Assembly: GCA_023231475.1 (NCBI GenBank)
Contig: JALJEE010000366.1
Coordinates: forward strand, 1-64,000
DNA length: 64,000 bases
Source of the DNA: Seison nebaliae
Lineage: Eukaryota > Rotifera > Pararotatoria > Seisonacea > Seisonidae
Direction of reading: 5' to 3'
Part shown: in pieces, positions 4,151-51,927 of the stretch
How the letters are laid out: each line of letters starts with the position of its first letter
Numbering within the stretch: position 1 is the stretch's first letter
The notes under the pieces: model-generated
The model's database searches: none
Told to the model about the DNA's origin: nothing
Seen by the model: only the letters and a program-made list of their open reading frames with translations
Made by a program: the position numbers and the translations under genes

Positions 4151-7131
4151 ATGTTTGGTAACAATCATCAGAATATTTTCGGTGCGAAGAACTTGACGAA
4201 TGATTCGAATAAGAATCCTAATTCATCGCTTGCGAATTCAATTTTCAGTCAGAAGACGCAAAGTAGCCCAATGTTCGGATCAACTACGTCTACGTCAACT
4301 GGTGCGAACAGTGGAGGAAATAGTGGTTCTCTGTTTGGGAGTGGAAGTAGTAGTTCTGGAATGTTTGGAAGCAATAAATCACCTCTCGTCTCGCAACCTT
4401 TATCAACTGCTTCGACGATTTTTCGTTCCGCCAATTCTGGTGGAGGTATATTTGGAAATAATCAACAAACTACAACTTCCACTTTTGGCGGACAACAGAA
4501 CCAAAAGAATATTTTCGGAGCAAATACCTCCAATTCCTCCGCGTCTAATTCGTTATTCAAGAATAATTTATTTGGAACAAATACCAATAATTCGACACAC
4601 ACTTCTTCTGCAACAACAACAACAGTCAATAATACTGGACAAGGATTATTTGCTTCACTCAATTTAAATAATGCAGGAAATACTACGCCGAATAATCAGA
4701 CAAATCAAAAATCATTATTCGAACCCAAAACGACAACAGGAGGAATAGGAGGAAGTACAAATCTCTTCTCCACAACTTCAACAGTACCAGCAGGAAATAC
4801 TGATAGTGGAATGTCGTCTTTATTTGATAAGAATCTTGACCAACAGAAAAAACCTTCAACATTCTCGTTCAATTCACAACCCACTACTACAACTTCATCA
4901 TTATTCTCTAATATACAATCACAACCAAAACAACCTTCTACAACAGCATCAACAATCCATGTAGTTGCAAGTACTTCAGGAAGTGCGTTTTCTTTATTCA
5001 AAATGAATCCAACAAATGCTAATACAACAACTTCCACTACACCACAAATGTTGAATCTGTTCAATAAAGATTCAGCAAAAACTACTCAATCTACACTTTT
5101 CCCTCAACTGTCAACTACAACGACGAATACTATCAATACTAATACACTTTTCAAACCTCCTGCTACATCTTCAATTTCACAATTAAATTTTAATGTTCCT
5201 ACTACAAATATTGCTAATAAAAGTCAATCATCGTTATCCTTTCTTTCATCAACACCTGCAAAGTTACCTCTCACTTCAACGACGACGACAAATGTCGCTC
5301 TCAATATCAGTTCAGCTACAACTACCTCTCAACCACCAGCGACAGGCGTAAATAATTTGACATCATTGTTCAATAATAAAAGTGCAATCGGTAAACCATT
5401 ATCAATTCCTGCAGTCACTTCAATTCCATCAGTCACGTCCGTTGGATTAGGTGGAGTTCAGGGAATAATTGATTCAACTAAATCATCGACGAATGTGACA
5501 GGTAATGAAGCAGGGGAGAAAAAGGAATTGGTATCAATCCTATCGAATAAAACGAAAAATGAGGAGAAAACAATAGTGAAATCAGAAAATACTCTATCAA
5601 AAAAAGGAACGATCTTTGACGAGAACATTCCCGAAGTTATTATGAAAATGATTAATAATTTTCAAGGGAATTTGAAGATGCAAGTTACATTTCTTTTATT
5701 ATCTTTATTCAATAATCTTATTTTTATTATGAATTACAGAAATCGTTACATGACCAGATTGAGAGTAAATTGAATGAACAAACATCTTCGATTGATGATA
5801 AGACGAAGAAGAATGAAATCGAATTAACTCGAAATGAATTGATGAATCTGTCATCTATCGTTACAACGATCGTTCGAACTAATTTGATAGATAATGAGAA
5901 GAAGATCAACTCGTTAAAATTCGAATCAACTGAAGTTGCTTTTACAATATCTTTCTTTATATTTTATATTGTTTTATTGAAGGAAATGAAAGTTGCTGAA
6001 TTATGTCAGAAATTGAATGGAATGAATCATGAACAAGTGATTGATGGTTCGAATGAGCGTCATTGTATGCAATTATCTCAACAGTTCAAATTCTTTTATT
6101 TAATAAATGTTAAAACTTTTCTTTAACATTCTCTTATCAGATATCTATTGAATATGATGGATAAATTCGAGAATTTGATCGCTCAATATTCCCAACAACT
6201 TCAATATTTGGAGAAACAAGTGGACTATATGTTCAATGCAAATACGAAGAGTCAATCAGATTACAATAATCTACAAAGTTCTCAATTTACTTATATCAAT
6301 GTATTATTATATTATTAATAACTAATAATTTCTTCTCACAACAGTTGTAGTTAATTTAATTCAGAATTGTAGTAAGATTATTGTGACGTTGGGTTCAAGA
6401 ATGTATGTATTAAATTCTGCAGTAGATGTTTGAATTATTCTTACTCAATTTTCTTCTTGACATTTTTCTCACAGAAATTACATGAAAGGTTTATGGAACA
6501 AATGAATAAGAAACAGATAATACATGATCAATTGATTCAAGGGAAAATATTGAAGTTAAATCGAAAAGATTTCGTTTCTTCCAATTTGGCAAAATATCGT
6601 TCTGATGGGAATGTTATTCAATCAATTCCGAATAATATCAATAATGAAACAACGTTAACGAATGTCGATGTTTCCCAGAATGTTGGTGATGTACAAAACA
6701 CTAATTTGAATGATACTCAAAATAAATCGATTACTCATGGAACGATAGGAGGCGTAAGGAAAGGACCAAATTTATTCCCTTCCAACATCGAACAGAAACA
6801 AATGAATCCTTTTTTGACTAGTGGAAATGATGGATCCACCTCCATCTCATCCTTCCCATCAACCCCTCAATTTGGAAAGGATTCGAAACAAAATAAATTC
6901 CTACAAGAGCCCGTTATGAATTCAACTGTTTTAACGAAACAACAGTTAGACAATTCTTCATTTAATGGTAATAGTTTGAGTACTACGATAATGGCAGCCG
7001 GTACGATAAAATTGCCGAAAAGTACACCGTCATTGTTTGGAAGTGACAACAATTTTGCCGGGGCTAATAGTGATTCTTCTTCCATATTTGATGGTAACGC
7101 TGATGGAAAAAGAAAAATTCCTAATAAATAA
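4151..7131 (+). CDS. NUP58: Nup58-like FG nucleoporin
   Basis: Six exons fit in phase: 4151-5683, 5740-5934, 5983-6083, 6141-6300, 6365-6427 and 6475-7131, giving 902 residues. Residues 1-500 are Ser/Thr/Asn/Gly-rich with FG repeats (MFGN, IFGA, MFGS, LFGS, IFGN, TFGG, LFGT). The middle is helical and begins with DENIPEVI, matching DENLPPVI of vertebrate Nup58. It continues with a coiled coil ending in a segment like EQYLGYRK (here KLHERFMEQ). A short FG tail follows (LFGSDNNF). Nup58 forms the central transport channel of the nuclear pore with Nup54 and Nup62. The family call rests on the DENxPxVI anchor, the coil layout and the FG-coil-FG architecture. The acceptor of the fifth exon is the least certain join. 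A longer 5' exon is possible. Confidence 0.72.
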
Positions 7132-8375
7132 TTTTATTCTGTTCTTATATTTTCGATTTTGATGATTATATTGAACCGTGAAATGATATCGTTGAAAATG
7201 TTGTTCTTTAATTCTTTTACTCCTCTTGGAAATGTTGATATGATTTTTATAAAATGTTTTTATTTCTTATTTTTTAAATATTTCATTTTTAGATAAGTTT
7301 ACCTTGTTTACTTTCACAACGAGTTTATTATGTTTATTACTTGTTAATCTAGCTTTTAAGTTTTCCGACTATCAAATTTAATCTTAACTGATTGTACAAT
7401 AATGATACTATTAGATTAATTTATGTTGATATTCGATATCTATATTACTTCATGTGTCGCTGAATTGACATCTACATATAGAGCAAAAAAGACCAAAAAC
7501 CAGGTGTAATACTTCGACTTTTACACATCTCTTTAACGTTATTTTTCCTATTTCCATGATTTTTTTGTAGTCAAACGACGGATGCGAACGCGTACCATTC
7601 CCTTGTAAGTTGTTATGTTATTATTATTATTTATTGACAGTGATAGTGCTATCACTTATTATTCTATCACACAGTGAGTGATATAAAATTCGCATGAGGG
7701 ATAAAATTAAGAAAAAAAATATTATGATTGTTAGATTTTAAACATCACAATTATTTGCCGATAATGAAATTTCTAATAATCAAAAAAGGAATAATAAACG
7801 ATTTTCAAATTAATGTTAATTTTGAAATATTTATTGAAAACGGAATAATTATTAAATATTCAAATATAAGTGTGTTTATGACATTATTCCTTCTCTTTCA
7901 TATGAAATTGGTAGAACATCGAATTTATTTGGAGAATAATTCGAAATTTGAAATGAATTAGTAATGTAACTTTTCATAATAGATGATGGACAACGGATAT
8001 GTGGAAAACAAATCGAAACTTATTTAGATGACAAAAACAAATGAATATCTTATTATCTGATTAATCTCTCATTGAATACAGCGAAGGAAAAGAAGAAATC
8101 GGTAAGGCATATCTACAATAATAATTTATTTTAATGATAATGAAACAGATTCCTGATACAGATGAAAATAGTTAAATTTTCATAATTTAGTATGGACACA
8201 ATCGTAAATGAAGACTCATGTAATTTAAATAAATTTTGACGTCATTTGTCTAAGGCCATATTTCGTGACGATACGTCATAAACTTTCATGATTATAGACG
8301 CTAAATAGATAAATCTTCGGATAGTTCAGATTATTCTTGGTAATTGACCAATTTTCTATAGGAAACTTGTTAATC
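7132..8375. other. Intergenic region
   Basis: This is AT-rich spacer between the nucleoporin and the membrane protein gene. One open stretch at 7728-7961 has no family resemblance and an Ile/Asn/Lys-rich composition expected from AT-rich noncoding DNA. The promoter of the downstream gene should lie near 8200-8370. No RNA gene was recognised. Confidence 0.5.
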
Positions 8376-11300
8376 ATGAAACACGACGAAGTTCAGTTTT
8401 ATTTGAAATTTAATGGAATAACTAATTGATTTGTGAAGGATTTCTATTTAACGAATGTTAGAGGGTTCAAATGGAATAAGAATAAGCGGATTAATGTGAA
8501 ACAATTAGTGGATGATGAGAATAATGAATATATTCATTATACAGATGCACTAGAAAGACATCGAAATCGATCTTATAATAATCGATCACCTTCAGCTGAT
8601 GAGAGAGTTAGACGAAATTTGGAACGTTTACAAGATGATTCCCGATCATTCTTTCCAACTAAATCAAGAATTGATAATGGTAAAACGGAAAGAAAGTTTA
8701 AATTGAAATTTTATTAAAAATAATTTGTAATATATCTGATTAAGGAAAGCACCAATTACGGCATTGATTGCAGGAATAGCTTTATTGTTTGCTGCAGGTG
8801 GAACGGCAGCCGCTGTGGGTATCGCCACATGTTACTTAACTTTTTTATGTTGGGTAGTTTTTTATTTCTTTCAATTTCAGCGGATAATAACGATAATAAT
8901 AATAATGTTGTAAATAACGGAACGATAATAACAACGACGACCGTGGCACCAACCAGAGGTTAGCACATTCTTTTCCCACTGCCAAATAATTTAGTCTCAT
9001 ATGAGAAATATTTTTAGTAATTTTAACAGTTCATTCATTGCACAATATTTCGGTACCAGTTACGACTTGTAATACAATAGCAGATCAATTGAATGCGGAA
9101 CTGATGACATATTTTAATCGAACTGACTTTGAAGAATCAACATCTATAATACAAACAAGTGTATTTGCCTGTCGGTTGGTTCTGAATTATTAAAAATTAA
9201 TAGAACCTTATTCCGTTCTTAGTAACTTAGGTTCGACAACGATAAACAATACGGAACTGCCAACTGGTTTTGTAAGTCGTATTCCTGGATCTAATATTTT
9301 GGAAACTTCAACGGCAGCGTCAACAATATTAACTGTAACAACTACTGTAACCCCAGCGCTCAATACCACTACAGTGAAAGTCAACACTACAACGACTACT
9401 ACACTACTACTAATCGTTAATACAACGGTAACTACAACTTCTCTACCTGTTGTCAATAAAACAACAGTAAATACGACCACTTCTGCAGAAGTTAGAGAAC
9501 GAGTCAGGCGACAAGAAGAAGAATCCGACGAAGAACAACCTGCAGAAACTGAAAGTGAAACACACGCAGAATCAGCCGAAGGAGAATCGAAAGAAGAAGA
9601 ATCAGCAGAAGAGGAATCGAAAGAAGGGGAATCGAAAAAAGAAGAATCAGCCGAAGGAGAATCGAAAGAAGAAGAATCAGCAGAAGGAGAATCGTCTGAA
9701 GGCGAATCGGCTGAAGGAGAATCGGCAGAAGGTGAATCGGCAGAAGGTGAATCGAAGGAAGAGGAATCAGCAGAAGGAGAATCAGCAGAAGGAGAATCAG
9801 CTGAAGGAGAATCAGCTGAAGGAGAATCGGCAGAAGGTGAATCTAAAGGAGAAGAATCAGTTGAAGGAGAAACCAAAGAAGAAGAGCCAACTGCAGGAGA
9901 ACCGACAGAAGGTGAAAGTGAAATTGAAAACGAAACGAAAGCTGAAAAACCAGAAAATGAAGAAGAAACCAAACCAGAAGTTGAGTCAGAAACACCAAAT
10001 GAAACTAATGCTGAAAACTCAGAAGAATCCGAAAATGTGGGAAATGAACATTTGAGGATTCCGATTGAAAATGCTATAGCGAATGCAGGTGAAATTGCGT
10101 TTGATTTTGATATTTTTTTTGAAACCAATTATTTTGATCCATTTTTTTAGAAATAATTCATTATTGCATTTTTCAATTGATTTCCTTCAAAACACATTAG
10201 CGGTAGATTCGATGGTTCGGGAAGATGTCAACAATTACTTGCAGGAACGATTTCCATCAGATTTTGTTGAAAAATTGAAAGATATAAATGAAACTCAATT
10301 TCCTAAACTTATTGAAGTATATGTAAATCTTGTTTCTTCTGCCAGTTATAATCAATCTCAGATGTATATTCAACTATCGAATATTTTCAGATTTTACCAC
10401 AAGTCTTTCAACCGCAGTTGTTACAACGACATCGACCCCAACATCAGTGGCAAACGTGACCGCGAGTGCTAATCTACGTCAAGCAGTTAAATTACCTTAT
10501 AATCAATTATAATTTTTTAATTATTTCAGTTCATCAATACTCATCAACTCTCCGTCTCTCAAACTGAATGTAATGCGAATAAAGAAGCAGTATTAAATTC
10601 AGTTTATACAAAAAATCATCAAATAATAATCATCAATCATTTCAATATTTAATTTAATTTCACAGATTATAACTACATTACAAAAATCGAATGTGGCCGA
10701 AAATTACGTTTCATCAGTTTTTCAAAATTGCCAGTTAATTTTTCTCCATTTTTCTCATTTATAAATCACGACATAAATGATCCTCAAACTTCAGGTCATT
10801 AGCAGTCGGAACTAAAAGAAAACGTCAAATCTCATCATCTTCATTATTTGTTGTGCAAGATGTTTTCCGAATCAATAATTTACCATCAAACTTATTGTCG
10901 ACCCCACTGACTACTTTCAAAACAATTTTCAATGAGGTAGATCTCTCCTATTATTCTATTTTGTTTAATTCAAGTTCTTTTTTTTGTTAATCAATTTTCT
11001 AAAATTCCAAATATTAGGCAAGGCAGCGCAATTTGTAGCATCAACTGAAACAACTGCTACACCATCCCCTGATAGCAAAGTATTTAAATCGTTCCATTCA
11101 ACAACTTTGGATGAAGTTGCTTGCAACAATTTAACTTCGAAGTTGAAGGATGAAGTTTCATATTTTGATTATTCTTTTAAACCCAATCTTTCTAACTATC
11201 TTTAATCTATTAGGTGGTAAATTATATAAATATAACTCAATTAAAGTCCACATTTATTCAAACGTCTGAAGATGTTGGATGCTCGTTAAAATTAATAATT

Positions 11301-11559
11301 TGCATAATCTTTTAAATTTACATCATTTTCATAGTGATAATATTATGTCTCTCACAATGACACATAGAACGAATTCGTCAACAATTGAACAAATAGAACG
11401 ATCCTATCTGACATCGTTTCCCCAACAAAATACAGGACACTCTTTCAATCAAACAACTTATCCAAATCTTTATAAATATTATACTCAAATATTAAACGGT
11501 TAAACATTAATTATAACCCTTCTCAAATTTTTCTTTTAATTTTAGTAACTACGATTTAA
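8376..11559 (+). CDS. Type II single-pass membrane protein with acidic repeat domain and three cysteine modules
   Basis: Fifteen exons fit in phase (8376-8390, 8439-8679, 8750-8818, 8881-8958, 9018-9174, 9223-10088, 10201-10344, 10391-10485, 10530-10601, 10666-10733, 10795-10936, 11023-11154, 11214-11284, 11335-11498, 11546-11559) and give 775 residues. An ~86-residue cytosolic head precedes one membrane helix (PITALIAGIALLFAAGG). The large ectodomain is Thr/Asn-rich and carries basic cleavage-like sites (RVRRQ, KRKRQ). A long acidic block built on EGESAEGES repeats lies between cysteine modules 1 and 2. Three modules begin with CN and end with C 32-34 residues later. No family recognised; a cell-surface or cuticle/mucin-like role is only inference. 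The first exon is the weakest part of the model. Confidence 0.6.
9560..9870 (+). repeat. Coding minisatellite, ~12-nt unit
   Basis: About 25 imperfect copies of a 12-nt unit like gaaggagaatcg lie inside the big exon of the membrane protein and encode the EGES(A/K) run. Because the unit is a multiple of three and lacks stop codons, two other frames stay open too, including one on the opposite strand; these are shadows. Confidence 0.85.
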
Positions 11560-32651: not shown

Positions 32652-35024
32652 ATGACGACGAATGTTAATGATGTGAACAAGAATGAGTTAATAAATAATT
32701 TATATCAGAATTATAATAAGGAACATCTTTCAAATTATAATGAGAATGAGAATATTCAAACGTCGTTATGGGCAGGAAATACGTCAATTATTGGAGCAGT
32801 GAGTCAAGAGCCGAAGATAGATATTAATTATTTTAATTATCTCAATGCTTATTATCAATATCTTTCCGAATCAACTACTCAAACAACAACATCAATAACA
32901 TCATCTTCTGCTATATCTTCATTCATTTGTTCTACCACTGCTTCACAAACATCATCATTTACACCATGCTCAATGTCGAATCTTTCAACAGATACTACTG
33001 CATGTAATAATCAAATCATCAATAATAACAACGACAACAACAATAATAATCATAATAATAATAATAATGAATCTCTTGTTCCATCATCATTTATGTATGA
33101 TACTTTAACAAATCCGATGTCGATGTATTTCCATTTATATGATGGAGATAAACCCACCATTCTATTAGATACGACAAATAATATGAGTTATTCGAACAAC
33201 GCTAATACTTCGTCAACACATTTGACTAATATGAATACAGAAGAGATACCGATTGCATATCCATCGGAAACGTTTTCTAATCCGTTCGATTTACTTGCAT
33301 ATCCAAATCATCTATCTATTTATGATGAGAATTTTTATAAAGTTCAAGAACGTTTATTATCAGTATCATCATCTCTCTCAGCCACCACATCGTCCACTTT
33401 ATCAACATCAAATAATAATTCGAGTGGCGATTTAAATGATAATTCTGCTAATAATTCACAAGTGATGAATTCAAATGATTTACGAATGATTTCACCGTTT
33501 GTGGAAGGATTGTATTCTAATAATAATTTGTTGATTGATGCCGTATTCAATAACAAGACCGTCTTCCAATCAATGGAATCACTTCTTCAATTTAATCCGA
33601 ATAACATAAATTCCGAAAATAATGGTCTGAACGATAATTTCAATTGGTCGAATGTAACCCTTAATCAACATAATAAAGTTCAAAAGAATGATTTTAATCA
33701 ACAAAATTTCCTCTTTTGTCCAATCTGTAAAGAAAAACGTATTCCATATAATACGAGTTCTGGAATGCAAGTTTGTCCCGTTTGTCTTTCTTTACAAATG
33801 GAGAATAAGAAGCGACGAACCAAAGTTAGTTCTCTCCAATCACTTCATCCAATCATTTTCTTCCGACGATTCTTTTGTGCTTTACTATTTAATTAATAAA
33901 ATTTGATACCTATAAATTTATTAACTCTTTTTTATTTTAATTCCTCCTACACATTTCTAGTCGTCTGTGAAACGACCTGCAAATTCGAAAAATGAAAATA
34001 AAATTGAAACAAAGAAACCTAATACTTCGACGACCATCACTCCAATATCAGTTACATCATCGCAGTCTTCCTCTGTTACTCTTGGTACGACTTCGGCAAT
34101 CACAAAGAAAACGAATAATTGTTGTAGCAACTGTCGAACAACTGAAACGACATTATGGCGGCGAGATATTAAAGGTGAATCGGTGTGTAATGCATGTGGA
34201 CTTTATTTCAAATTACATAAAGTTTTCTTTTTCGTTATATGGGATGATATTCGCATAATTTTAATGGTCTTTTCACCTTAATCAGAAAGATCGTCCAAAA
34301 TCATATATGAAAAGTATAATTCAACCAAGAAAACGTCATAAGAAACGTGAGCATAAACCACCAATTTGTCCTTCACCACCTCCAACAGACATGAAACAAT
34401 TTAGGTCTAGTGTTATCACAATGAAACGGGATGCTCTCCTTCCAAAAATTATGGAGAATAAATCTTCTCTTGCAACGTCAACATCGATGAAGGATCCACA
34501 TCTTACGGAATTGACAGGAAATTTAGAAAATTATTATTCGAATGGAAATGCATTTAATGCACGAATATTTCATAAAAGTTTTTTTTTACTTTTTCCTTTT
34601 TTCAAATTTTTCTCATTGAGGAATAGATGAGAATGTTAATGTTTTCAATGAATTATCGAACTTTAATGGATTCTATTCATCGTCTAATACACCAATCGAT
34701 AATTCGGTGTTATCAATTCTCAATAATAAAACTACAACCACTGTTGATACTAATTATTCCTCCAACAACGATAATAATACGAATGGTCTTAATAACGATT
34801 ATCATAATGATTGTAATAATGAGGAAATAAATAATAATAATAATAACAATAATAACAATCACAATATTAATAATAATAATAATGATAATAGTGATACGAT
34901 ATCGGGAAAGAAGGAATGTAAAATAGATAAATTTTCTTCAATTCATTCCAATTTATCATTCCATGATAATAATTCATTAGATAATCAATATGATGCAACA
35001 TCATCATTTTTATTTACCCAATAA
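32652..35024 (+). CDS. GATA-type zinc-finger transcription factor
   Basis: Four exons fit in phase (32652-33824, 33961-34221, 34286-34577, 34627-35024), giving 707 residues. A long Asn/Ser/Thr-rich N-terminus leads to a degenerate first finger, C-x2-C-x15-C-x2-C ([10 protein letters not shown] to VCPVCLSLQ), lacking the LWRR core. It is followed by a normal C-terminal GATA finger ([15 protein letters not shown], then [15 protein letters not shown]-x2-C-x17-C-x2-C) and a basic tail [18 protein letters not shown]. The finger is split by an intron after KLHK, a common GATA position. The tail is Asn-rich (AAT repeats). It should bind WGATAR sites. It cannot be matched to one named subfamily (elt/pannier/serpent). 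Confidence 0.9.
34826..34882 (+). repeat. (AAT)n trinucleotide run encoding polyasparagine
   Basis: An imperfect AAT/AAC microsatellite inside the last exon of the GATA gene encodes a run of asparagines. Similar runs occur at 33036-33067 in its first exon. Confidence 0.85.
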
Positions 35025-35278: not shown

Positions 35279-36660
35279 TCAATATGATCCATAATGGAAA
35301 TATATTTTTATGAATAATTTAATAAAGAAATTCTTAACTTCCAATAACGAATCTTCTGGTAGATCGGTACAATGGATTGCATTTCTCACTTTATCTATCC
35401 CAAATTGGGCTCGTAATGTTTTCGGTCTTAACGTTCTCCCAATTTCCTGTCAATAATTTTTCCATTTTGGAACAAATTTTATATTCATCATAGATAGATC
35501 AATAATCTAACCGGATCAAATGGTCCGCAGAAATTTCGAAAATGTTTCTGAGCTTCCTTTCCTTGGAGTTCGAGAGCGATACACGGACCATTGCACAATT
35601 CATTGACCATTTTGGGATAATCTGAGAGAACGCCTTTGTATATTTCGAAGAATTCTTCAGCATCTTTCATTTGTAAGACGAAAGAATGTACTGCAATTAT
35701 ATCGAATCCTTCCTCTTCAATCCGTTGAATAATAGACGCTGAAAAATCAAAAATTTTCAAAACTCTAAAATATATCTTTAATGGACTAACATGTTAGATC
35801 GCTCTTTACTGCATGAGGCTTGATAATGGTTAAAGTTACATCATCTGTAAATATCGCATTACTTCGACCAATACTCTTATTGGATGTCGAGAAGAAAATG
35901 TTTGATAATTTCTCAGTCATCATTTCAGTTTTGGAGGCTAATGTCGTTTTACTTCCAAATTTCTTCTCAATAGTTACATCAGCATCCTCGTTCGATGATA
36001 TGAGTTGCCATTGCTCGACTGCTTGAAGACCTACCATTTCCAATAATATTAAAGTAGTACCAGCTAAATCGGTAGGTGAATATCTTAATGTTCGAAATAA
36101 ACTTTGATTTTAAGAAGTAAAATAGAAACTGATCATTCGCTTCCAAAATATTCAACATCAATCGAACGTCTTCAATCGATGGAACAATCGATCGAATATG
36201 AACAAGTTTCAATTGACTACGTGAGATGATATGCGTAATGTCACCCAAATGTTTCAATAATTCTCCTCGAATTATTCCTACTGTTCTCTCACTTTGTGCT
36301 GTACGCTTCGATCTAGTATATTCATTCCCATAATCAACAATATTTAACAATCTTCCATTAACATTGATGGAACTTCCAATATTAAGATCATTAACTTCAA
36401 CGGCTTCATGTTTCATCCGTCGTAAGAATTGACGGTTGTGCATCATATCGAACTAATTTTATTAAGAAATTATAATTTTAGGAAGAATATTGAAGGAAAC
36501 CATTTCGATGGTACCGTCATTCGGATAATAAACTAATTGATAAGTTCGTCGAATATTCGCCTGTGGATCCAACCATTGTACTTTATAAACGAAACGTTCT
36601 TCTGACTACAAGAATTTAAACGATTTGAATGATTTCTGTCAAATCTAATCTTCTAACCAT
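35279..36660 (-). CDS. NME7: NME7, nucleoside diphosphate kinase homologue with DM10 domain
   Basis: Six exons fit in phase: 36660-36658 (only the ATG), 36605-36501, 36452-36130, 36101-35791, 35738-35512 and 35446-35279. They give 378 residues; human NME7 has 376. The DM10 domain starts SEERFVYKVQWLDPQANIRR and contains YYPNDGTIEMFD. It is followed by LLNIVDYGNEYTRSK and a first, degenerate NDK domain. The second NDK domain has LTIIKPHAVKSDLT, YKGVLSDYPKM, GPCIALELQG, FCGPFDP, LRPKTLRAQFG, and the catalytic-His segment RNAIHCTDLPEDS. NME7 is a component of the gamma-tubulin ring complex and of ciliary/flagellar microtubules. The first NDK copy lacks the normal active-site His segment. The intron 36129-36102 is only 28 nt. 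Confidence 0.9.
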
Positions 36661-37198
36661 ATCAATTTATCGATCAAATGCGGAAGTTGTAACAATAAAA
36701 TGTTTTACGAGTAGATGTTCGGTTGTCTTGGTGATTTATTTGAAAATCTTCTTCGTTTCTCTGAAAAGAAAAACTCTCTTTCTCTTGAATAATAAATAAG
36801 AAAATAATTTTAATATTTCAAATTTTATTCTCAATTCCATTTGAATGCAAGCTTTGGAAGATTATTTATATTTTATCGGTCTCTTATGACAATTGTTCAT
36901 GGTTCTTTCATCTAGTTCTTTTGGTTCAATTTAATTGGGATCAATTTACATTATGGAACTTCCAAAAAAATATTTTTACATATAAATTTAAAGTTAAGTT
37001 AAAAGTTTGTTAAAGAAAAGTAACTGAATAAACAATAAATTAATAAATTTCTATGAGACTTTGGAAATAGATAAGTCGTAAAACGTGACATCGGATGGGA
37101 AATTATATCAAATCATTTTTCCGAAGTAGACTTATTTCATTCAATAATCTATTATTTTCTTGCACTATTTACTTGAATTTTTGGGAGTTTTATATGAA
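36661..37198. other. Divergent promoter region between NME7 and the FN2/sushi gene
   Basis: 538 bp of AT-rich DNA separates the ATG of NME7 (minus strand) from the ATG of the FN2/sushi gene (plus strand). It must carry both upstream regions. No motif stands out by eye. Confidence 0.5.
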
Positions 37199-40100: not shown

Positions 40101-41789
40101 GTTGTCAATTCGACATCGAAACAAAATAATTTCACAAAATCGAAATTGTTCTCTTGGGAAACTGGATATACGACAAGTGCGTTTATGGAATCGATTGCTA
40201 ACATTTCTATTAATAGAAGATTGTCGAATAATGACACAAAACTAGTTGAAAAAGAAATAAATATAACGAATATGGTGACGGGAGAAGCTGAAATAAATGA
40301 GGATTCTTTCACAATTTTTGAAACTGAATTAATTCCATTACCAGTAACGACCACGATAGATGTATATTCAAATGTTAAGTGGAGAACTAATTCAAAGCGA
40401 AATAATACAAAAAAAGTTCCAATACAAAGGAAGAAATTGCCAGAGAAAAAGTTAGAAATTCCAGATAAGAAAATTGAAACATTTAGTACAAAGAGCAAGA
40501 AAGATTTTAAAAAACTTCTTACATCCGATAAAAAAGTTTTTCAAAAGTTTACTACTCAAGTTATAACAGTAAAATCGAAAAAAAAGAATGAAATAGATGA
40601 GAAAAAGATAACTACCCATTTTATACCACATACAATTTTAGTGACAGAAGGTGAAAAAAGTGGAGTACTGAATGAAATGGACAAAATAGAAAAGAATAAA
40701 ATATTTACATTGGAACGTCCAATGGTGAAACATAAAACAACACAAAAAATGAAAAATTTGAACGAGAAGAAAAGACATGAAATGGATGAAAGTTTTTCGA
40801 ACAATCCAAACTCAAAAATTAATGTGGAGAAGAAAACATTTTCAGTGAAAATTAATGGAGTCAATTCAAAAATGAATAAGAAAAATGAATATTTGTTTAA
40901 TAGCAAATTAACATCAAATACAAAACCGTTAATAGAAACGAAAAATTATACTGAATCCAAATTTTCGGTAACCGAAATGATTCCGAAGAAATTGCCAAAA
41001 ATTGATTTACCTCTAAAATCTCAGAGAATATCAACTAAATTATATACATTGCCAATAACATCAGCTGTAACGGAATCTACTGTGAGTGAACAAATAACTG
41101 AAGGTAAGATAAATGGAAAGTTGAACGAACAGCGTCTCAAACAACATCTGAAACAACGAACAACAACTGAATTGATCGAATTGACTTCTATTTTGTTGGG
41201 TAATAAGAGAAATTTATCGAAGAATCAGAATAGTAATAACATTCGAAATAGTTTTAATAATGTTATTACTCCAAATTTTAATGTAACACAATTAATTCCA
41301 ATGCCATCTAATTATTCAGAAATTTATTTGGTTAATGAAAATTTAAAAGAAAGAAAAGTGATAAATAATATCGTTCCAAAACCAATTCAAATATCAATCA
41401 AGAATGCAACTATTGACAAATTTAACAATATGGATAATTCTGAAGTGAAGTCGAAGGAAAAACGACAATCGAAAGTTATTGATATGTCTCAACATCATAT
41501 GGGCAAATTATCATTTATTCCACCAGCTAACAAAAAGAAGAATAATAATGAGAATAATTATGGAAAATTGGGTTCGATCACAATAAAAAAGAAAATTCCA
41601 ATTACTTCAAATGAAAACGAAATCGAAATTGATAATGAGAAGGATCTTCTTGATTTAGACGATGAACCAGATAACGATTTTCTGATATTTTTAGCGAATA
41701 TGAAAAAAAGCGAAAATAAGAAAATTTCAAAGAATTCCGCAACGACCACATTCTTCTCCACTACCAGCAGTTGGCGAACGACGACATAA
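37199..41789 (+). CDS. Large secreted protein with fibronectin type II and sushi (CCP) domains
   Basis: Exons 37199-37250, 37311-37388, 37433-37566 and 37620-41789 fit in phase and give 1477 residues. Residues 1-17 are a signal peptide (MWNIIILIIFLTHLTES). Residues 24-62 form a fibronectin type II domain: C24 in DCKFPFKINKKSFNRC, then TWCKIHGR and DWDYC62. Residues ~92-163 form a sushi domain with four cysteines, ending LPSGTWKYDSELVGC. The remaining ~1300 residues, in one 4.2-kb exon, are Lys/Asn/Thr-rich, nearly without cysteine and probably disordered, with many dibasic sites and a Thr-rich patch. FN2 domains bind collagen and sushi domains bind proteins, so extracellular-matrix attachment is a reasonable inference. 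I know no family with this layout. Confidence 0.8.
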
Positions 41790-41919
41790 AATAAAATTTG
41801 AAAACTTTTCAAATTGAACAATAATTATTTTCTTCTTATTATAAAATGACTCTTTCATGTTTTCTAGACAGTAGTAGCTTTGTTGTCAGTCAGTGAAGTA
41901 TTTTGAGTTTGAATTATAG

Positions 41920-42945
41920 TTAACATTTGTAAGAGAATTTGTTTGCCATGAAACTCATGACCGCCTCACGATTGGAAACTAGAATAAAACCAACAATAAG
42001 GAAAATCATTCCACTTGCAATCGAACAAGTAAATAAGATTATGATGAGATCGGTTGGTGAGAAGACAAGATGTATTTGGGTTAAATCCTCTATAAGTTTT
42101 GGAGAATTGAGAAAGAATTGAAATAAGATTAATATTATTCATTTTGGTGGAGGGAGAAATCACTTGAAACTTGAAAATACAATTCCTCTACAATTTATAC
42201 ATGGCGGTCCAGTTTGAACTACTTGTGTGCTTCTTTTGTGCTTTCTCGCTAGTTCTTCTAAACTACTCTTATGCATCAGAAGGAAATTCCATAAAGCTTT
42301 CATACGATCAGTGAACTTCCAATCTGACATAGTTGTTCCTCTTTCTTTTGCATATCTCGCTCTACTATCTGTATTTCCTTTCTCTTTCGTTTTCAATTTA
42401 GATGATGCTCTTTGATTATCTTTATTTTTTGATAACCTTGAATGGCTTTTCTTCCTCTGATGACTATGACCTTTCTTATGTGATGGACGTTTTGTAGTAC
42501 TTTCATCGACATCTTTCGCCGGCTGTTCCTCTATCGGTTTTTTAATTTCAGACGCTGGAGAACGATCTGTACCGTCGGTAGGAACATCGGAATAAATCTC
42601 AACTAAACCAGGATCCTCATCTCTTGGATCGTTTTTTGAATTTGGGTCAAATCGTTTATCTTGCAGACTCATATAGTTTGCTGAGTTTAGATTGAAATCG
42701 TTTCGTTTTAATCGGAACAATCGATCTTCATAATCAATATTCTCGTTATGTTGATACTTGTGAAGTTTTGGCGACAAATATGATTGATGAGGCATGAAAT
42801 TTTGGTCCATTCCCACTACGTTTTTGAAGAATGGTTTCATTCGATATACAGGTACGAGATCGGATTCTGCAGATAATTTCAAAAATTTCTTATAAGAGAA
42901 TCCATGTAAGATGTGTATGAGAAATAGACAAATGAACAAATGCAT
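41920..42945 (-). CDS. Single-pass type I membrane protein, unknown family
   Basis: Two exons, 42945-42171 and 42089-41920, join in phase 1 to give 314 residues. ATG 42945 begins a signal peptide (MHLFICLFLIHILHGFS); the frame continues upstream but without ATG. The ectodomain has two dibasic sites (RLKRND, DKRFDP), an acidic stretch, then a very basic His/Lys/Ser-rich stretch, and a PPCINC pair near the membrane. The second exon supplies the membrane helix (DLIIILFTCSIASGMIFLIVGFI) and a short tail. It is convergent with the FN2/sushi gene (130 bp between stops). No family recognised. Confidence 0.55.
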
Positions 42946-45619
42946 TAGGAGAAGGAATTCGCGCAAAAAATCGTTTGATTGGTTCAAATCAAAAGAAGGA
43001 TAACTTTCCCATTAGAAATATTTTCGAAAATGGATTCAATTTATCCATTCTATAGAGCAACATCTAAAGAAGATAAACACTCCTCTTTTAGTGTTTTTCC
43101 TCCCCTCTACCACCATCTCCTGATCATATCAGTCATCATTATTATTATTATTATTTTTGATTCAGTTAAAACTAGATCGGGAACCTCCATATTTCTCCAT
43201 AAAAATCACAAGTTAATTTTCGTCGTTAATAAATTCATGAAAAGTGAAGTAAAAGTGTTAAAATTACTTCCATTCAATATTATACATTTGTTTCTATAGA
43301 AATTTTATCAATGTGGTTTCGTCATCATTTCATCTTCATTTATGATGACTTAACTTTCGTTACTCTTTCATTTTCAACTATTTATTGTTGTTCTTCTTGA
43401 TCAAATCGTAACATTAACAATCATATAATTAATTAAATAAAATATTCAAAAAAATGAATAAAATGATAAAAGATCTATTTCTTTCAATATTTTGATTCGC
43501 TTTAATGTTTCTTCTCCAATTGAAATATGGTTCGAATTCGAATTGTTTTACAACTAATTGGGAAAAGAAACAATTGTAACTCCCAAAACAAAAATATTGT
43601 TTTTGGCGCGAGAGAAGCAACCAAGTGTCGACCACAATACGATTATGATGACGTTTAATCGCTTAACAGTTTTATGAGATTTCGTTCATTAAAATATCTA
43701 AGAAAATTGTGCAAACGAATAGAAAGTATAAATTAAATGAATTCAAGTATCTTCAACTGATTTCCCAACATTTCCAATATTCATTATCCAACATTTCTTT
43801 CTATTGATGATTAGAAGATGTGATGAGTCGGCGATGATTGTCTTTTCTCACCAAACGACAATTTCCGCCACTTGACTCGGAAACAAATGAGATATCTTCT
43901 TCCTATTTTCGAATTGGAGGCGATAGAATCTTTCGCAAATTAGACAAATTGAATATCAGAACCGAACTAGAAGAACCAATTCAGTTTAGCGTAATCATCT
44001 AACTAGAAAGATAGACTTTCCCTTTTGATGTAGCGCATCATTATATCAATTATTCGGCTATATTAATCGACACCATTCATTTAGATGAAAATTTCCTGCA
44101 TATTTTTAATCAGTTTATTTATGAAGATGAAAATTTATTTTTTGTCGATTCTCTTTCAGATCTTGTTTACTAATAAATGATGGTGTTGATAATTATTGTC
44201 ACGTTCTCCCATACACTACGTAAATAGGTAGAAAAAATTAAAATTTTTAACACTTAACTTCATTAAAGGAAATGCGCACCAGTTATCCTGTTGAAAAGTA
44301 TTCCGGCCGTCTTCTCATCTAATGCCGTCATCTGTTGACAAATCCTGTTTTGCCATTTCTTCATTTTTTCTTCTTCTTCATCTTCCTTCATCTTCTCTAT
44401 ATCTTTTATCAGAATATTGAAGTTAATTTAGATTTTATCTTAAAGATTTTTCATTCGCGATAGAACATACAAATTAACTTTCGCACAAATCCTTTTTCCT
44501 TCATCCTCCTTTAATGACCATTCTATCTATCTCATTTTTTGAAGAACGACTCCCACATGTCGAAGATTAAAAGTTTTCTTCGTTGATTTGAAAAATTGTT
44601 TAATAATCTAAAATCCCATTAGTTTGATGGATATTTTCGAAAGAACAATATAGAAACATTTCTAATTTTTTTGTTGAATAAAGTATTAATTTGTTTAATT
44701 TGTTTCCATTGATTCATGTTGGTGGAATAGAAGCGATCAAATCCTTCCGCTACTTTCTTCGCCTAATCTCACATCTAATCAGTTCCTATGAAGATGCGCT
44801 AATTGCTTTATGCAATTCTTTCATTTTTGATTGTTTTAACAAGGAAAGTGTGCACGAGAACATCTTCTCGCAGATCTGTAATTTATGAGATTAAGGAGGC
44901 GGTCTCAACCAATTTCTCCCATCTGTGTCCAAAACAAAAGAAAGGTAAATAGATGGAACATCTTCCATAAATGAGGATGAGATAGATCGGAACTATCTCG
45001 AGGTGTCATATTCACACTGAACTTTCCATTGAGATTTGTGTATAGTTTTTGTGAAGAATCGTAGTTTGGTTGGAAAACGATTTTTTCGTTGTCATATTAT
45101 TCATGTCAGTTTAAAGAGAAATATTCTCGCTCAAATATTGTTCATGTAACAGATGGAATTGATTCTATCATCAACATTCTTTTGATATTGACCGATATTG
45201 ATAGGTATCAATTGATTGCTTGGTGCCTCGCCTAAACGGTATGGCGTTCGTTCGTCAGCTCGAATGATTACAATTTACGAACCAATCAATAAACACGATC
45301 TGTATATATTAGATTCTTGCACATGTAGTTGATACATATCTCAACATTTATTCAACATTCTCATCTCATAAAAGAGCATTCGTTTGAAAAAGTGTCAAAT
45401 CTTATTTGAACTATTTGGATAAATTTCAATTCTTCCAAATATTTTCTTTTGATTGAGACGCATTCCTTAACAGGAAAACGCGAACAGTTCCCTTATGTTT
45501 ATGAACTCATTTTTTACGATAACTTTCATTTCATTTACTAAAGTCATTTAATAAGAAAAAATCATAAAATTTTCTTCTAATTTTTCTTATTTTTCCAATT
45601 CTCTGTTCACAGAAAAATT
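42946..45619. other. Long intergenic region upstream of the T-box gene
   Basis: ~2.7 kb holds no frame with family resemblance. It includes a short ATT run near 43137-43160. Its length relative to other spacers here suggests regulatory DNA for the T-box gene, as is usual for developmental regulators; this is inference. The sequence ttctgttcacag just before ATG 45620 could be a splice acceptor for a 5' noncoding exon. Confidence 0.5.
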
Positions 45620-47632
45620 ATGCTGGCTTCTTTAAATTTCAATAGTTGTTCTGATATTAAACCATCAGACGCAACAAACGAATCAACTCTATCATTCCTT
45701 TACAACAACAACATTAATAGCAATGATAATAACAATAACAATCAGAATAATATCGATGGAAATGAACAGAAATTGTTATCCAATTTCCTTCAATCTCAAA
45801 CACAAAATGAACCAATTCCTCAACAACAACAACAACAACAACTGAAGCAACAACCACCCCAACAATTGTTAAGACAGTCGCAAACAAATAATTCGAATGA
45901 ACAAGATTTATTCTCATTAAATTTTAATAATTATTTCCAACAATTACAAACATCACAACTGAATCTCCCGATTAATGAAGTGAGAACACCAGCCACCGTA
46001 GAAAACGATAGTGGAAGTACATTACATGAAAATGAAAGTGGTTATTCGACGGAAGATTCATATACGAATAAATTCAAATTCTCCCCAAAAGATGAAGAAT
46101 TCGTCACAAGAAAACAATCGTCACCGGAAGACACGAAACCGAATATCAATCAAATTCCGAATACTTTCAATACTCAAGTTAATGAACTTGCATCATCACC
46201 CATCACATCTTCATCAACTTCGCCTGCATTTCAACCATTACCACAAATGGTCAATTCTAGTATTGGGAGCGATGCATCCAATATGGCTTCATACCAACAA
46301 TTAGTCGCTCAAATGTTAACTGCAGCATCGATCAATTCCACCAACACCTTTTCCAATTCTAATCATTTAATGGCACAAATTGCAGCCGCTGCCAATGGAA
46401 TGAACTCGTGGAATCCTTATATTCAACATTCATTCTATACTGCCCCTTTGAAATATGCAAATCCCGATACGAATATAGAGGTGACTTTGGAAAATAAAGA
46501 TTTATGGCAACGCTTCCATAACATTGGAACTGAAATGATAATTACGAAAACTGGTCGACGAATATTTCCCACATTTAAATCCAAATTGAAAGGTCTGAAT
46601 GATTCGTTGAAATATATATTATTAATGGATGTTATTCCGATGGATGATAATCGTTATAAATATCATAATTCTGAATGGGTCATTACCGGTAAAGCTGAAC
46701 CACAATTCCAACGACGTTTATATCCCCATCCCGACTCTCCAGCTACAGGCAAACATTGGATGAGTCAAACAATATCTTTCCAAAAACTCAAGTTTACAAA
46801 CAACGCATTAGACCAACAAGGACATGTTAGTCGTTTTATAATTTTCTTTTTTCTTCATATTTGTATTTTATAAAGATTATTTTAAATTCGATGCATAAAT
46901 ATCTCCCACGATTCCATGTTGTGCAAGCAGATGATTTGTCTAATTTGCAGAATGCTCAATTCAATACTTTTGCATTTGAAGAAACTCAATTCATTGCAGT
47001 GACAGCATATCAAAATGAGAAAATTACACAATTGAAAATTGATCACAATCCATTCGCTAAAGGTTTTCGAGATAATTCCATGCTAAAACGAAGTACGAAC
47101 AGGTTTCTTTAATTAATATTTCTCTGAAATCTTTCATATAAATATTTTCCCTTTTAGTGATCAACCGACCAAAACTTCATTTGATCGAACATCGTATGGA
47201 AATGAATTTTTGGAGCAATTTGGACAAAATCCTAATGCTAATGTGCAAAGCTATTATGCAAATCTATTAATGCAAAGAAGATTTCTGATGGCCATGCAAC
47301 AAATATCCTCAGATGCTACTCCAACACAAACACAAAATATTCCATCACAGTTCCTTAATTTCGGTGAACAAAACTTAAAGAATAATATGATGAACCCATT
47401 ATTACAACCTCAACAATTATTCGACCAACAATCTCAACAACCAAATTTCAACCTGCTACAACCACAAGTACAACAACAAACATTATCACAACAAACTCCA
47501 AATAATCAGAGTAATGACACTGGTGAATCAAATAATAATTCCTCGAACCGAAAGCGAAAGAGTTGTGATGAAGAAATTTTCGGCAATTCGGAAAAAATTA
47601 GAAAATTCTCGAATGAATATTTCGCACAATAA
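45620..47632 (+). CDS. T-box transcription factor of the Tbx2/3 type
   Basis: Three exons, 45620-46825, 46876-47102 and 47158-47632, fit in phase and give 635 residues. The N-terminus is rich in Asn, Gln and Ser. The T-box spans about residues 285-475. It begins [20 protein letters not shown] and contains [83 protein letters not shown] and PFAKGFRD. The closest relatives I know are Tbx2/Tbx3, Drosophila bifid/omb and nematode tbx-2. The tail is Gln-rich and has a [10 protein letters not shown]-like nuclear localisation signal. It binds T-box DNA elements and usually represses transcription in development. Confidence 0.92.
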
Positions 47633-47709
47633 AAATTCCATAAATAAATTATATTTCATTCCAATTTTTTATTAATTATTATTCTATTTGAAACAGTATT
47701 TAAATTATG

Positions 47710-47736
47710 AGTGTGTGACGTGTGTGTGTGTGTGAG
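47710..47736. repeat. (GT)n microsatellite
   Basis: A short interrupted GT repeat lies in the 3' flank of the T-box gene. Confidence 0.85.
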
Positions 47737-48193
47737 TGAATTGTGCTTACTTCAAATTTTATTAATTTTATCGCCAATTCAAATTTTACAACATTCATTG
47801 TGAATTTATTTATCACGATTAATTTAATGATTTCATAATTATTCAAATAATATATTTTCTTAACATTTATTCGATAACATAAGAAATATCTTACAAATAA
47901 TCTACAATATCTGTTAGAGTAATCTAAATTATTTCATCACCAGATAAATATCTATACGATATTTAAACATGATAAGCAAGAGTTAGAGAATAAATTAAGA
48001 TTTCGTGAATTTTTAGATTTTAATTTATATTTTTTATAAAGAATTAAAGAAATTAAAGAATTAGAATGAAAGTTTTAAATAGATTGTATCTGAATAGTTG
48101 AAACAAATCTAAACAATTTTGAACATTTTCATTTGATTTTTTTTCGAGTTTAGTTGATTTTAATTATTTTACCATTTTCCTTATCTTAACAAA

Positions 48194-48814
48194 ATGGGAA
48201 GAAGACCAGACGAAACTCCTTGGGATAGTGCTGCGAGGGTATGTCTTCTTTTGTCACTACTAGTGGTATTGGTTAGACTTAATATTGTCTATTCTTGTCT
48301 ATTTCATGGCGATTTAGACAATAAGTGTTATCGTTATAGTACTCACAAGTCAAACAATAAAAGGTATCAATGATGCTGGTAAACCTAGTGATGAAACTAG
48401 CGACATAAAGATGCGATCCGTTGTACTACTGATATTCTGCATATTTTCAACCATATTCTCTTTCGTGTGTCTAGTCGGAGTTCTGCTAAAGAGGTCAAAT
48501 TTACTTTTCATGGTTAGTTCTTCTGGAAAAGGATTTCACTATATACAAAATTTGAATAGTCCGAAAGTTTAATGTTCGCGATAACAATTTGTTCGGTGCT
48601 ATTGTATGCGTTAGTTCAAGAAATATGGATGTACAACTTCGATTGGATATGGCTAAATTATGCTCTCACTTACAGCCTTCATTCATCTTTTGCATTTCTA
48701 TCAGTAGTCTTTGGACTAGTCGTCTGCATTAGAAATGAAACGGCCGGGGATATGTGTTCAAGTTTCTATTGGAAATCGACAGATACGTCGAATCTGTTCC
48801 GCAGAGATTTCTAA
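48194..48814 (+). CDS. Small four-helix membrane protein, unknown family
   Basis: Three exons, 48194-48238, 48318-48512 and 48560-48814, all join in phase 0 and give 164 residues. A short polar N-terminus (GRRPDETPWDSAAR) is followed by four hydrophobic segments: about residues 17-32 (ISVIVIVLTSQTI), 53-75 (VVLLIFCIFSTIFSFVCLVG), 84-104 (LMFAITICSVLLYALVQEIW) and 115-137 (SLHSSFAFLSVVFGLVVC). A short polar loop joins helices 1 and 2. The two-plus-two spacing with short loops is that of a small tetraspan protein, but it has no tetraspanin CCG motif. No family recognised. Confidence 0.55.
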
Positions 48815-51678
48815 AATAAATAAATCAGAAACAATTTTATTTTTTACAAGTTTCTTAGTTATTTCAAAGGTCCAACAAATTTCATTCAATTGAGAATGGA
48901 AAACCTCTTCTAATGACGATTTCGTTGAGTCATCCGAGTAAATTGTTTTTCTGTTTGCCAGCAATTGTCCGTTGAGTGAAATGAAACGTAGTCCAAAAGA
49001 ACTAGAGGATTTTCTTCTGGAACGAATAGTGATTTCCTTCCTTCTTCTACATGCAAGTGTATGTTCAACAATGTTTACTTATCTGATTGAAAGAATCGTC
49101 AGAGTGAATAGACAATAGAATTCTTCAAGAGATGTCTTCCCTCGAATTATCTTTATAAAGAACACTTCATTCGACTTATCAAGAAATAATCTCTGATATC
49201 ATTTACTTTTAATACATTGTCTATTAAAATCGTGGAAGAGTGTAATTCTGTTCTCAAAATATTTTCAACTACGAATAAACTCTACTTTCAATTATTCAGT
49301 AATTGATAAATTTAATCTACTCAAAATATTGATGATAATTCAAACAGATATTAATCTCGTCATATATCATTGCCGTAGGAATAAATCATAGGAAAGATCG
49401 TTAAGCGTTTATACATTTATTATACTAAATTTATTCCATTGGGAATTCCAACTAGTAAACATTATATTTTATAAATGAATTCGGAAGGGTAGAATTTGTT
49501 GTAAATGAGAAGAATACAACTTCATATTATAAACTTTATATTATAAAGTGAATAATAATACATAATTATAAGAACCAGAAGTAATGGAGGTCATACACGT
49601 AATTGTTTATTTCACAATAAATCATTGGACATCAAGTCGTACAATGAGAAATTATTTTAATGTTCAATCAATATTCAAGTTCGTCGATTAGAATACGAAA
49701 CAACATTAGACATCGTCGTGTTCATCTTTTCAAAATCAAATTTTAAATGAATTATATGAAACATTCGATGTACAGGATCAAATTACAGTTCACGACCCTT
49801 TTATATTAACAACATACAATTATGTAGTTGTTCATTATCTCATAATAATCATCTTATAGTTTATTGATTATTATAAATATTAATTGATTTTCAATGATAG
49901 GATGTTCATATTCAAATTGTTAACTAATAGAATAATATCGAAATAAAAAAATTACGATAAATCTTCTTCATATTACGTTTCTTAAGAAAATATCAATTTA
50001 ATATTAATGTTTAATATAAAGTGTTTTTATTATTTATTTACTTCTATGATAATTATTAATTATCGTTTATGGATCGTTCAATATGATTGTTTGTTATATC
50101 ATCAACTACCAAACGAAGCTATATCAAAATTATTTGAAAATAATCATAAGAAAAAAGAAGTAACGTAGAGTTTCCTCAGCTGAAAATTAAGTTTTTTAAC
50201 GTAACATTATGTGGATGATTATGATATGAATTGTTCTTAAAAATAATGAAACAAAATTGAATCTATATCACTCCAACTTGTTAATTGTGTCGAATCACAG
50301 TATTTCTATTAAAGCGGTCTGATCTCTGCGTTTTTTTAATTTTCTCTATTAAATTGATCATACTTTATCGCTTAGGACAATTCGTCATTGTTATTATAAA
50401 TTTTCATGATAATTATTAAGATCGAGTAAAATATGATTGAAGTAAACAAAATAATAATAATATAATTGAAAAATCGAGAAGATTTCTTATGGATGATTTG
50501 TAGGAACAGTTTGGAAGAATGTAGGAAGAATGAAATTGTCCGCGAAATGTCATTAGAGGAAGTTCAGCTTCCTGTGGATTCTAGTCAATTATCATAAATA
50601 CTAAACAATTTTCTTTTAGACGGTTTACATTGATTTCAAATTCGAACTCATATGTTGGAGTTGTTTATATCAGGCGAAATTCGCAGGTATTTGTTAAAAA
50701 CTGTTTTTAGTCATCTGTTTAATAGTGACGTCTGATAATGTTTTGAATAAGCAGGTAATAATTGAATTAGAGTAGATCATTCTACTTCTTAATCGAACTC
50801 ACAGTCATGAAAGGTTTGGAGGGAATGTACTAGATAAAAAAATTTATTAACTGATCGTTATTATACAATCAAAAACATTATGGAAATCATAAAAATCAAG
50901 TACTATCATGACCTGGCTATTTCCGCCAATACGAATCTACCGATAATTATGATGATGTAAAAAACTCTATTCTCCCACTGTTTACTTTCGCTATTATTAG
51001 TGGAAACTCATTTATTTCAGTTGTATAAGTTTGAATCAAGATAACTGTCAGCAATAAGTACTTTTATCTGACGACATTATCACACTTATACAATATTTAT
51101 ATAATCAATAAACACTAATTAAATATACACACAATGACCGGCAACGTTCTCCAATATATCTATGTGCGTGTATTAACCTATTTGTCATAATGTTCATAAA
51201 TAAATATTTCAAGAAATGTTCTCATTCTTTTCTTCTTTATTATTTTCAAATAGATGAATTTCTTATATATTTCCCCTTTAAAAAATTGTTTTTCTATGTT
51301 TCTTTTACTTCGTACCAATTGCCATTTCCTTCATATTACCATATACTTATCGTTGTAAATTATTATTACTTCTTAAAAAAATTATTCGTAAGTTCACTAA
51401 ACTTATTTAATACGGTAGTAGTTTTTTTATTATTCCGATTTTTTTTATTTTTCCGATTTTATTTACCATAATATTCCGTTCTATGACTTTCGATTCTACT
51501 TCAGTTTACACTTCCAAATGTTACGTACAATTGTTATACGTATATTCAATAGTTGTCAAAGTTTAGTTTGATAATAAAATCATAGCTAGTTCCGCCGAAT
51601 AATTGTAATAAATTAGTTAATAAACTTTATTTATGGACGATTATCTGAAGAAAGACGACATTTTAAAGAATTGAAGAT
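48815..51678. other. Gene-poor AT-rich region
   Basis: Nearly 3 kb shows no convincing coding sequence on either strand. Short Phe/Ile-rich frames (for example 51190-51471) have the composition of noncoding AT-rich DNA. No tRNA or other RNA gene was recognised by eye. Confidence 0.5.
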
Positions 51679-51927
51679 ATGTTAATGAATTGGATGGTTG
51701 AAATAGGAATTGATGGAATTGGCGCTTTAATTTTATCGTCAATGCAAACGACCTCACATTTGACTCATAACATTAGAGTTTCTTATGTAAATGAATTGAG
51801 AAGGAAGGTAAGATTGAGAATTATATATGATAATGTAATATGTCCATTCATTATTTATATTCAGTTGAACGTAAATGAATTAATGTTCTATGCGTCAGGA
51901 GATTTTATTACACATAATCTTATGTAA
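51679..51927 (+). CDS. Small possible gene, 63 residues
   Basis: Two exons, 51679-51807 and 51865-51927, are separated by a 57-nt intron with a strong GTAAGA donor and a TTATATTCAG acceptor, and they join in phase 0. The product has no signal peptide and no recognised domain (YVNELRRK joined to LNVNELMFYASGDFI). The good splice signals are the main support; it could also be the last two exons of a longer gene whose 5' part I cannot see. Confidence 0.35.
   Translation: MLMNWMVEIGIDGIGALILSSMQTTSHLTHNIRVSYVNELRRKVRLRIIYDNVICPFIIYIQLNVNELMFYASGDFITHNLM

Follow-up and report, generated by a model that had tools for sequence, protein, structure and literature searches.

In the tiny marine seisonid rotifer Seison nebaliae, GTT takes the place of the usual GT-purine at the start of most introns examined, and three of the four U1 small nuclear RNA (snRNA) genes found in its genome carry, in the 5' end that pairs with the donor, a change that restores pairing to such sites. 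The material comprises a stretch of 64,000 nucleotides (the window; contig C152 of a genome of 36.0 Mb in 846 contigs), annotated proteins of the species, and further samples of the same genome. Donors in these samples have exchanged the purine at position +3 for U and, to a lesser degree, the G at −1 for A; the U1 genes have changed at the bases facing these positions; and the altered ends fit the donors better than the canonical end does. It is very probable that these changes belong together and that a variant U1 selects donors of the form MAA/GTT, the slash marking the exon–intron boundary here and below.

We matched the exons of three annotated proteins exactly to the DNA and, around every junction, enumerated the possible splits that yield the protein sequence. 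The resulting set comprises 34 introns: 16 from IFT172, 8 from atlastin, and 10 from an SLC13-type transporter. Annotated protein SNEBB_005836 matches the atlastin of the window at 98%, and the IFT172 predicted from contig C120 is 97% identical to the annotated hypothetical protein SNEBB_000136, with residues 140–1768 of 1768 covered and the first 139 lying outside the fetched stretch. Each of the 34 introns admits a single GT/GC-AG solution, in every case with GT. All therefore have the GT...AG ends of major (U2-type) introns. Minor (U12-type) donors carry the motif RTATCC; none of the 34 starts with ATATCC or GTATCC, the genes for U11 and U12 not having been searched for.

Position +3 is T in 31 of these 34 introns, the remainder being two GTA and one GTC, and the preference recurs in each protein (IFT172, 15/16; atlastin, 7/8; SLC13-type transporter, 9/10). 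With intron bodies as the reference, where the fraction of T is 0.489, the one-sided binomial P is 2e-7; relative to the share of GTT among all genomic GT sites (0.41) it is 1e-9. The GTRAGT-like donor with a +3 purine, which is typical of U2-type introns without defining them, is not the form found in this set. The last exon base is A at 22 junctions and G at 8, and acceptors read TAG (17/34), CAG (12/34), or AAG (5/34). Alignments to other animals have no gap within 8 residues of the junction at 12 of 16 sites in IFT172 and 7 of 8 in atlastin, the two proteins of the three that this check covered.

Seven further junctions, positioned manually with human proteins as guides (five in LUC7, two in U1-C), are GTT in 7/7 cases; the LUC7 protein joined across them scores 244 bits on Pfam LUC7, vs. 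60 bits for its best single piece. A 380-nucleotide intron that the first gene models gave the SLC13-type transporter was discarded, being in fact two introns and a missed exon. PRPF8 offered no junctions at all, as it lies in one uninterrupted frame of 2395 codons (contig C431, around 80270–81487). According to the available text of the Seison genome paper, STAR and Trinity served to assemble transcriptomes, and Augustus was self-trained for core genes (PMC8351084). Published Seison RNA-seq has the ENA accession PRJEB43415, and PMC12256650 mentions small-RNA data for a seisonid.

Within the window, 13 of 14 anchored donors are GTT (Table 1). They span atlastin (7/8) and six other junctions (6/6), placed by a trained gene finder, where the alignment to a solved structure has no gap; NME7 and MRPL12 contribute two each, a T-box and a GATA gene one each. 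FAF2 and Nup58 were left out; the trained gene finder did not recover FAF2 in the window. Across the whole window, with a retroelement excluded, the same finder called GTT at 24 of 27 donors. Its errors there include a GTC donor at 18771, contradicted by annotated atlastin, and a GTT intron at 17720–17913 that fuses two.

Ab initio prediction extended the counts beyond annotated genes. Training of the gene finder drew on the window plus 20 further stretches of 10 kb (264 kb in total), and its first round used a donor model with no preference beyond GT; the retroelement's two introns were left out of the donor counts. This first round returned +3 T in 60 of 83 introns, above the 49% T of intron bodies (P = 1e-5). 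Because a trained finder amplifies the preference it has learned, the first round alone is unbiased; after training, +3 T stood at 108 of 121. Of the 21 sources, 16 contributed introns to the first round and 18 did so after training. Outside the window the corresponding ratios are 43/60 and 84/94, so the shift is not local to the window. The original prediction had described donors as mostly GTT, the last exon base as often A, and acceptors as mostly TAG or AAG, and had suggested a lineage-wide shift in donor recognition; the three features recur in the annotated introns, that of the donors also in the anchored and unbiased ab initio sets, and the shift is supported for this species.

The trained donor logo (n = 123, both retroelement introns included) has A at 55, 69, and 65% from −3 to −1, with G at 21% at −1, T at 89% at +3, and T-rich positions +7 and +8. 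Position +5 is flat, yet G is in excess there (24%, vs. 7% within introns). Ab initio acceptors (n = 121) comprise 63 TAG, 36 CAG, 20 AAG, and 2 GAG. At +4 of the ab initio introns (n = 123), G is avoided (2% vs. 7% in intron bodies) and A is not preferred. The bdelloid spliced leader was not found with up to three mismatches allowed, in a search that did not cover other leaders.

On the RNA side, Rfam returned at least four U1 genes, and a pattern left open at positions 6 and 9 returned the same four; since the Rfam tool scores the best candidates only, the count is a lower bound. All four align to the whole U1 model (RF00003), at 97.4 to 112.9 bits against a curated cut-off of 69.5. Their 5' ends read AUACUAACCUG in L001 and L003, AUACUAACUUG in L004, and the canonical AUACUUACCUG in L002. 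Position 6 is thus A in three of the four genes found, with U at position 9 in addition in L004; the canonical ACUUACC occurs in one gene and ACUAACC or ACUAACU in three, membership of the Rfam family not requiring that word. Position 6 of U1 faces donor position +3 and position 9 faces −1, so that A6 pairs with a +3 U and U9 with a −1 A; the base that A6 replaces is a uridine normally present as pseudouridine. The three A6 genes keep CAUUGCAC of loop II, the sequence bound by U1A, which is replaced by CAGAGCAC in the canonical gene (L002; contig C208, 1501–1664). A canonical and an A6 gene lie together on C208. By the trained gene finder, genes with GTT introns are predicted at the U1 loci of C208 and C762, a sign that these are not contaminants; at C647 it predicted a single-exon gene only.

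Two side observations concern these 5' ends. The A6 end (L004, 1649–1659; also L001 and L003) contains UACUAAC, the classic branch-site word, complementary to GUAGUA of U2; the variant U1 could therefore in principle pair with U2. On the minus strand of L002 (1501–1511), the antisense of the canonical end reads CAG/GTAAGTAT, which the gene finder called as a donor, probably spuriously.

To quantify the fit between the two sides, we scored the mean number of Watson–Crick pairs with the donors for the canonical 11-base end and all 33 of its single substitutions. For the 34 annotated donors, the largest gains came from U6A (+0.85), C9U (+0.41), and G11U (+0.24). Once A6 is in place, no further change gains more than C9U, and the two together give the exact sequence of the L004 gene. 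Mean pairs rise from 5.09 for the canonical end to 5.94 for A6 and 6.35 for A6+U9. Donor by donor, A6+U9 alone fits best at 21, A6 alone at 7, and both of these equally at 4; the canonical end alone is best at 1 and ties with A6+U9 at 1. The unbiased ab initio donors likewise rank U6A first and C9U second.

U6, U5, U2, and U1-C look ordinary. The single U6 gene found (L005) has a normal ACAGAGA box, loop 1 of U5 is CGCCUUUUAC, and all three U2 copies found have GUAGUA, although the third (78.7 bits, many broken pairs) looks decayed; the functional sequences of U2, U5, and U6 of a major spliceosome are thus present in canonical form. One U1-C gene was found, a second match resembling WBP4 by eye. 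Aligned from its first methionine, U1-C is identical to the human protein at 41 of 57 residues and at 23 of the first 24. The original prediction had named U1, U6, and U1-C/LUC7 as places for a matching change: U1 has one in three of its four genes found, whereas the U6 box and U1-C are unchanged or nearly so. With U6, U5 loop 1, U2, and U1-C all ordinary, the donor-matching change lies in the U1 RNA. Crystal structures reveal no contact between U1-C and the bases, and it is mainly through base pairing that U1 chooses donors (PMC4383343); a conserved U1-C is therefore expected. We also found one LUC7 gene, a SNRNP27K gene, and a divergent METTL16-like protein (L036; 38.5 bits on Pfam PF05971, CNPPF motif kept). 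Loss of METTL16 or of SNRNP27K as the cause was rejected, both kinds of gene being present.

A candidate promoter element bears on which U1 genes are expressed. The word TYRCACTTTY starts, without mismatch, 71 to 95 bases upstream of U5, one U2, the canonical U1, and the A6+U9 U1, and the decayed U2 copy has it with two mismatches; it could not be judged for U2 gene L040 (2 upstream bases) or for U6 gene L005 (near a contig end). It occurs in 0.0014 of 130-nucleotide background windows, but the consensus was drawn from the sequences scored, so that the match is a hint only and this rate is not an independent P value. If TYRCACTTTY is an snRNA promoter element, then both the canonical and the A6+U9 U1 are made. 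We infer that the variant U1 genes are probably transcribed and carry out donor recognition.

A U1 with A6, and best of all one with A6+U9, would pair continuously with MAA/GTT, mainly from −3 to +3, alongside an otherwise normal U1-C. The donor would next be passed to an ordinary U5 loop 1, with U's able to pair with A's of the exon, and to an ordinary U6, whose contact positions, +4 to +6, are little conserved. In the terms set out in the available text of a recent review, the donors of Seison are closer to the U5 type than to the U6 type (PMC11732430). The route to this state may have begun with +3 U tolerated as a mismatch in T-rich introns, after which a duplicated U1 would have gained A6; with the old U1 still present, donors would then have drifted toward what suits the new one best. 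We consider it likely that this is a natural, genome-wide rewrite of the U1–donor code in an animal, in which U1 position 6 and the +3 of most donors have changed together, the step at U1 position 9 and donor −1 is in progress, and the old U1 has been kept.

Several observations weigh against a variant U1 as selector of GTT donors. Corrected for the GT background, the ab initio ranking becomes U6A, U2A, C9U, and U2A occurs in no gene; the second step is therefore less sharply predicted than the first. Of the other A6 genes, L003 has a two-mismatch element at −94, and the best match upstream of L001 differs at three or more bases. Folded alone, L004 (148 nucleotides) is not stabler than its shuffles (z = −0.98), whereas the canonical L002 is (z = −2.47). 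L002 also keeps the upstream element, and canonical U1 may, by this sign, still be made. Finally, U1-C is reported to aid the binding of U1 to donors with a +3 U mismatch in vitro (PMC4383343).

Retention of a canonical gene with its upstream element raises the possibility of two working U1 types, with A6 serving GTT donors and the canonical form a minority of GTA or GTAAGT donors, perhaps in long introns. This is compatible with a variant U1 selecting MAA/GTT, and we hold it to be unlikely. Intron 6 of atlastin fits it, with a length of 639 nucleotides and a perfect AAA/GTAAGTAG, and GTAAGT is mildly over-represented (84 seen vs. 67.5 expected). GTA, however, accounts for just 2 of the 34 annotated donors, and a separate GTAAGT class found no support ab initio: a two-class gene finder used it in 1 of 120 introns, compared with 2, 8, 4, 2, 3, and 2 in six scrambled controls, although the run missed the real GTAAGT intron of atlastin and is therefore blind to such long introns.

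Drift in T-rich introns is a less probable account still. Here the canonical U1 would do the work, tolerating a U–U mismatch at +3, and the A6 genes would be silent. The T content of intron bodies, the help that U1-C gives mismatched donors, and a canonical-ended gene that has the element and folds well alone, where L004 does not, all lean that way. Drift nonetheless fails to explain why +3 T in the annotated donors lies so far above intron composition when T at +4 to +6 does not exceed it appreciably or falls short of it, and it offers no account of why U1 should have changed at the two most useful of 33 possible substitutions. Nor does it sit well with the U1A-binding loop, kept by the three A6 genes and not by L002, or with the shared upstream element of the A6+U9 gene.

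A shift driven by proteins—through a changed U1-C, the number of LUC7 genes, or an altered METTL16 or SNRNP27K—is very improbable. The finding of one LUC7 gene, the divergence of the METTL16-like protein, and the lack of a +4 A preference are in its favor, and positions +3 to +5 are named as those affected by such factors (PMC11732430). The first residues of U1-C are, however, almost all as in human, METTL16-like and SNRNP27K genes are present, the corresponding association in yeasts maps to +4 (PMC10581693), and the complementary base in U1 would be left unexplained. To a gene-prediction artefact or contamination we give next to no credence: that the donors come here from DNA and protein annotation is in its favor, but independent routes agree, every annotated intron has its single GT-AG solution, junctions in IFT172 and atlastin are largely gap-free, and canonical and A6 U1 genes share a contig.

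Zhuang and Weiner reportedly showed in 1986 that a compensatory base change in an engineered U1 restores the use of an altered donor; such suppressors are laboratory-made, whereas the Seison case is natural and extends across many genes. Among the closest known systems to Seison are the GTTTGT donors of Entamoeba, for which we know of no matching U1 change. The consensus of confirmed Entamoeba introns has the same +3 T, but in a protist and not an animal, and a paper in its reference list mentions U2, U4, and U5 in the title, not U1 (PMC4053983). Switches between A and U at +4 in Saccharomycotina are a comparable single-position donor shift across lineages; they differ in position, are linked to METTL16, and come, in the available text, with no compensatory U1 change, ACUUACC being invariant wherever a U1 candidate was found (227 of 230 Saccharomycotina and 9 of 10 outgroups; PMC10581693). 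Fritillaria borealis is likewise an animal with a genome-wide donor shift, to non-GT/AG introns; the 5' end is unchanged and the same in both of its U1 versions, and the authors implicate U2AF duplication and N6-methyladenosine (m6A) rather than U1 divergence, as far as the available text goes (PMC13326754). The diplonemid S. specki has, as Seison does, a natural second U1 with a changed 5' end, but there the change is a stretch of C and both U1s fit the canonical donor logo comparably (PMC12621601).

A contact common to all the introns of a genome is expected to be nearly frozen. The 5' end of U1 has been called invariant from yeast to human (PMC4383343), and, in the available text of another paper, earlier work is said not to have tied donor variation clearly to U1 (PMC10599564). 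What we describe resembles a natural rewriting of a recognition code regarded as almost fixed over that range. With both sides moved and old and new U1 side by side, Seison makes it testable how such a code changes and how far U1, rather than U5 or U6, sets the donor sequence; gene finders that assume GTRAGT would mis-annotate its genome. Among the papers listed in searches of the open-access literature, no title or abstract opening reports such a U1 change or Seison donor sequences, which is not proof of novelty. In the available text of the Seison genome paper (PMC8351084), "splic" occurs once, "intron" twice, and "donor" and "snRNA" never; PMC12256650 has no occurrence of "splic," "intron," or "snRNA."

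Table 1. Anchored introns of the window, with positions in the window, and other features (donors are written as last exon bases/intron start)
Feature	Donor	Position	Strand	Comment
MRPL12 intron 1	AAA/GTTAGTTA	14816–14862	+	Gap-free vs. human L12
MRPL12 intron 2	CAA/GTTTTCTT	15082–15130	+	Gap-free
Atlastin intron 1	GAA/GTTCTATT	17268–17316	+	Single GT-AG solution (P0121); gap-free vs. three rotifer-group relatives; 4-residue insertion nearby in solved atlastin
Atlastin intron 2	GAA/GTTTTATT	17449–17506	+	Single solution; short alignment gap three residues off
Atlastin intron 3	CAA/GTTTCCTT	17720–17774	+	Gap-free vs. Brachionus, Pomphorhynchus, Adineta
Atlastin intron 4	ATG/GTTAACAC	17868–17913	+	Gap-free vs. 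Brachionus, Pomphorhynchus, Adineta
Atlastin intron 5	AAA/GTTCCCAT	18181–18231	+	Gap-free vs. Brachionus, Pomphorhynchus, Adineta
Atlastin intron 6	AAA/GTAAGTAG	18289–18927	+	Sole atlastin exception: perfect canonical donor (GTAAGTA), 639 nucleotides; gap-free vs. Brachionus, Pomphorhynchus, Adineta
Atlastin intron 7	AAA/GTTGAAAA	19138–19198	+	Gap-free vs. Brachionus, Pomphorhynchus, Adineta
Atlastin intron 8	AAT/GTTAATAC	19493–19545	+	Gap-free vs. Brachionus, Pomphorhynchus, Adineta
GATA intron, inside zinc-finger domain	AAA/GTTTTCTT	34222–34285	+	KLHK/KDRP gap-free vs. GATA factors
NME7 intron	CCG/GTTAGATT	35447–35511	-	GPFDP/EIGRTLRP gap-free
NME7 intron	CAT/GTTAGTCC	35739–35790	-	SDLT/SSIIQRI gap-free
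T-box gene intron	CAT/GTTAGTCG	46826–46875	+	Gap-free
Gypsy-type retroelement		187–3619		Protease, reverse transcriptase, and integrase-like frames, by eye
TYRCACTTTY		Upstream of L002, L004, L038, L039		Candidate snRNA promoter element

The far end of the window (52872–64000) is occupied by an open frame of at least 3709 codons without a predicted intron, apparently encoding paired calponin-homology domains, a feature of spectraplakins.

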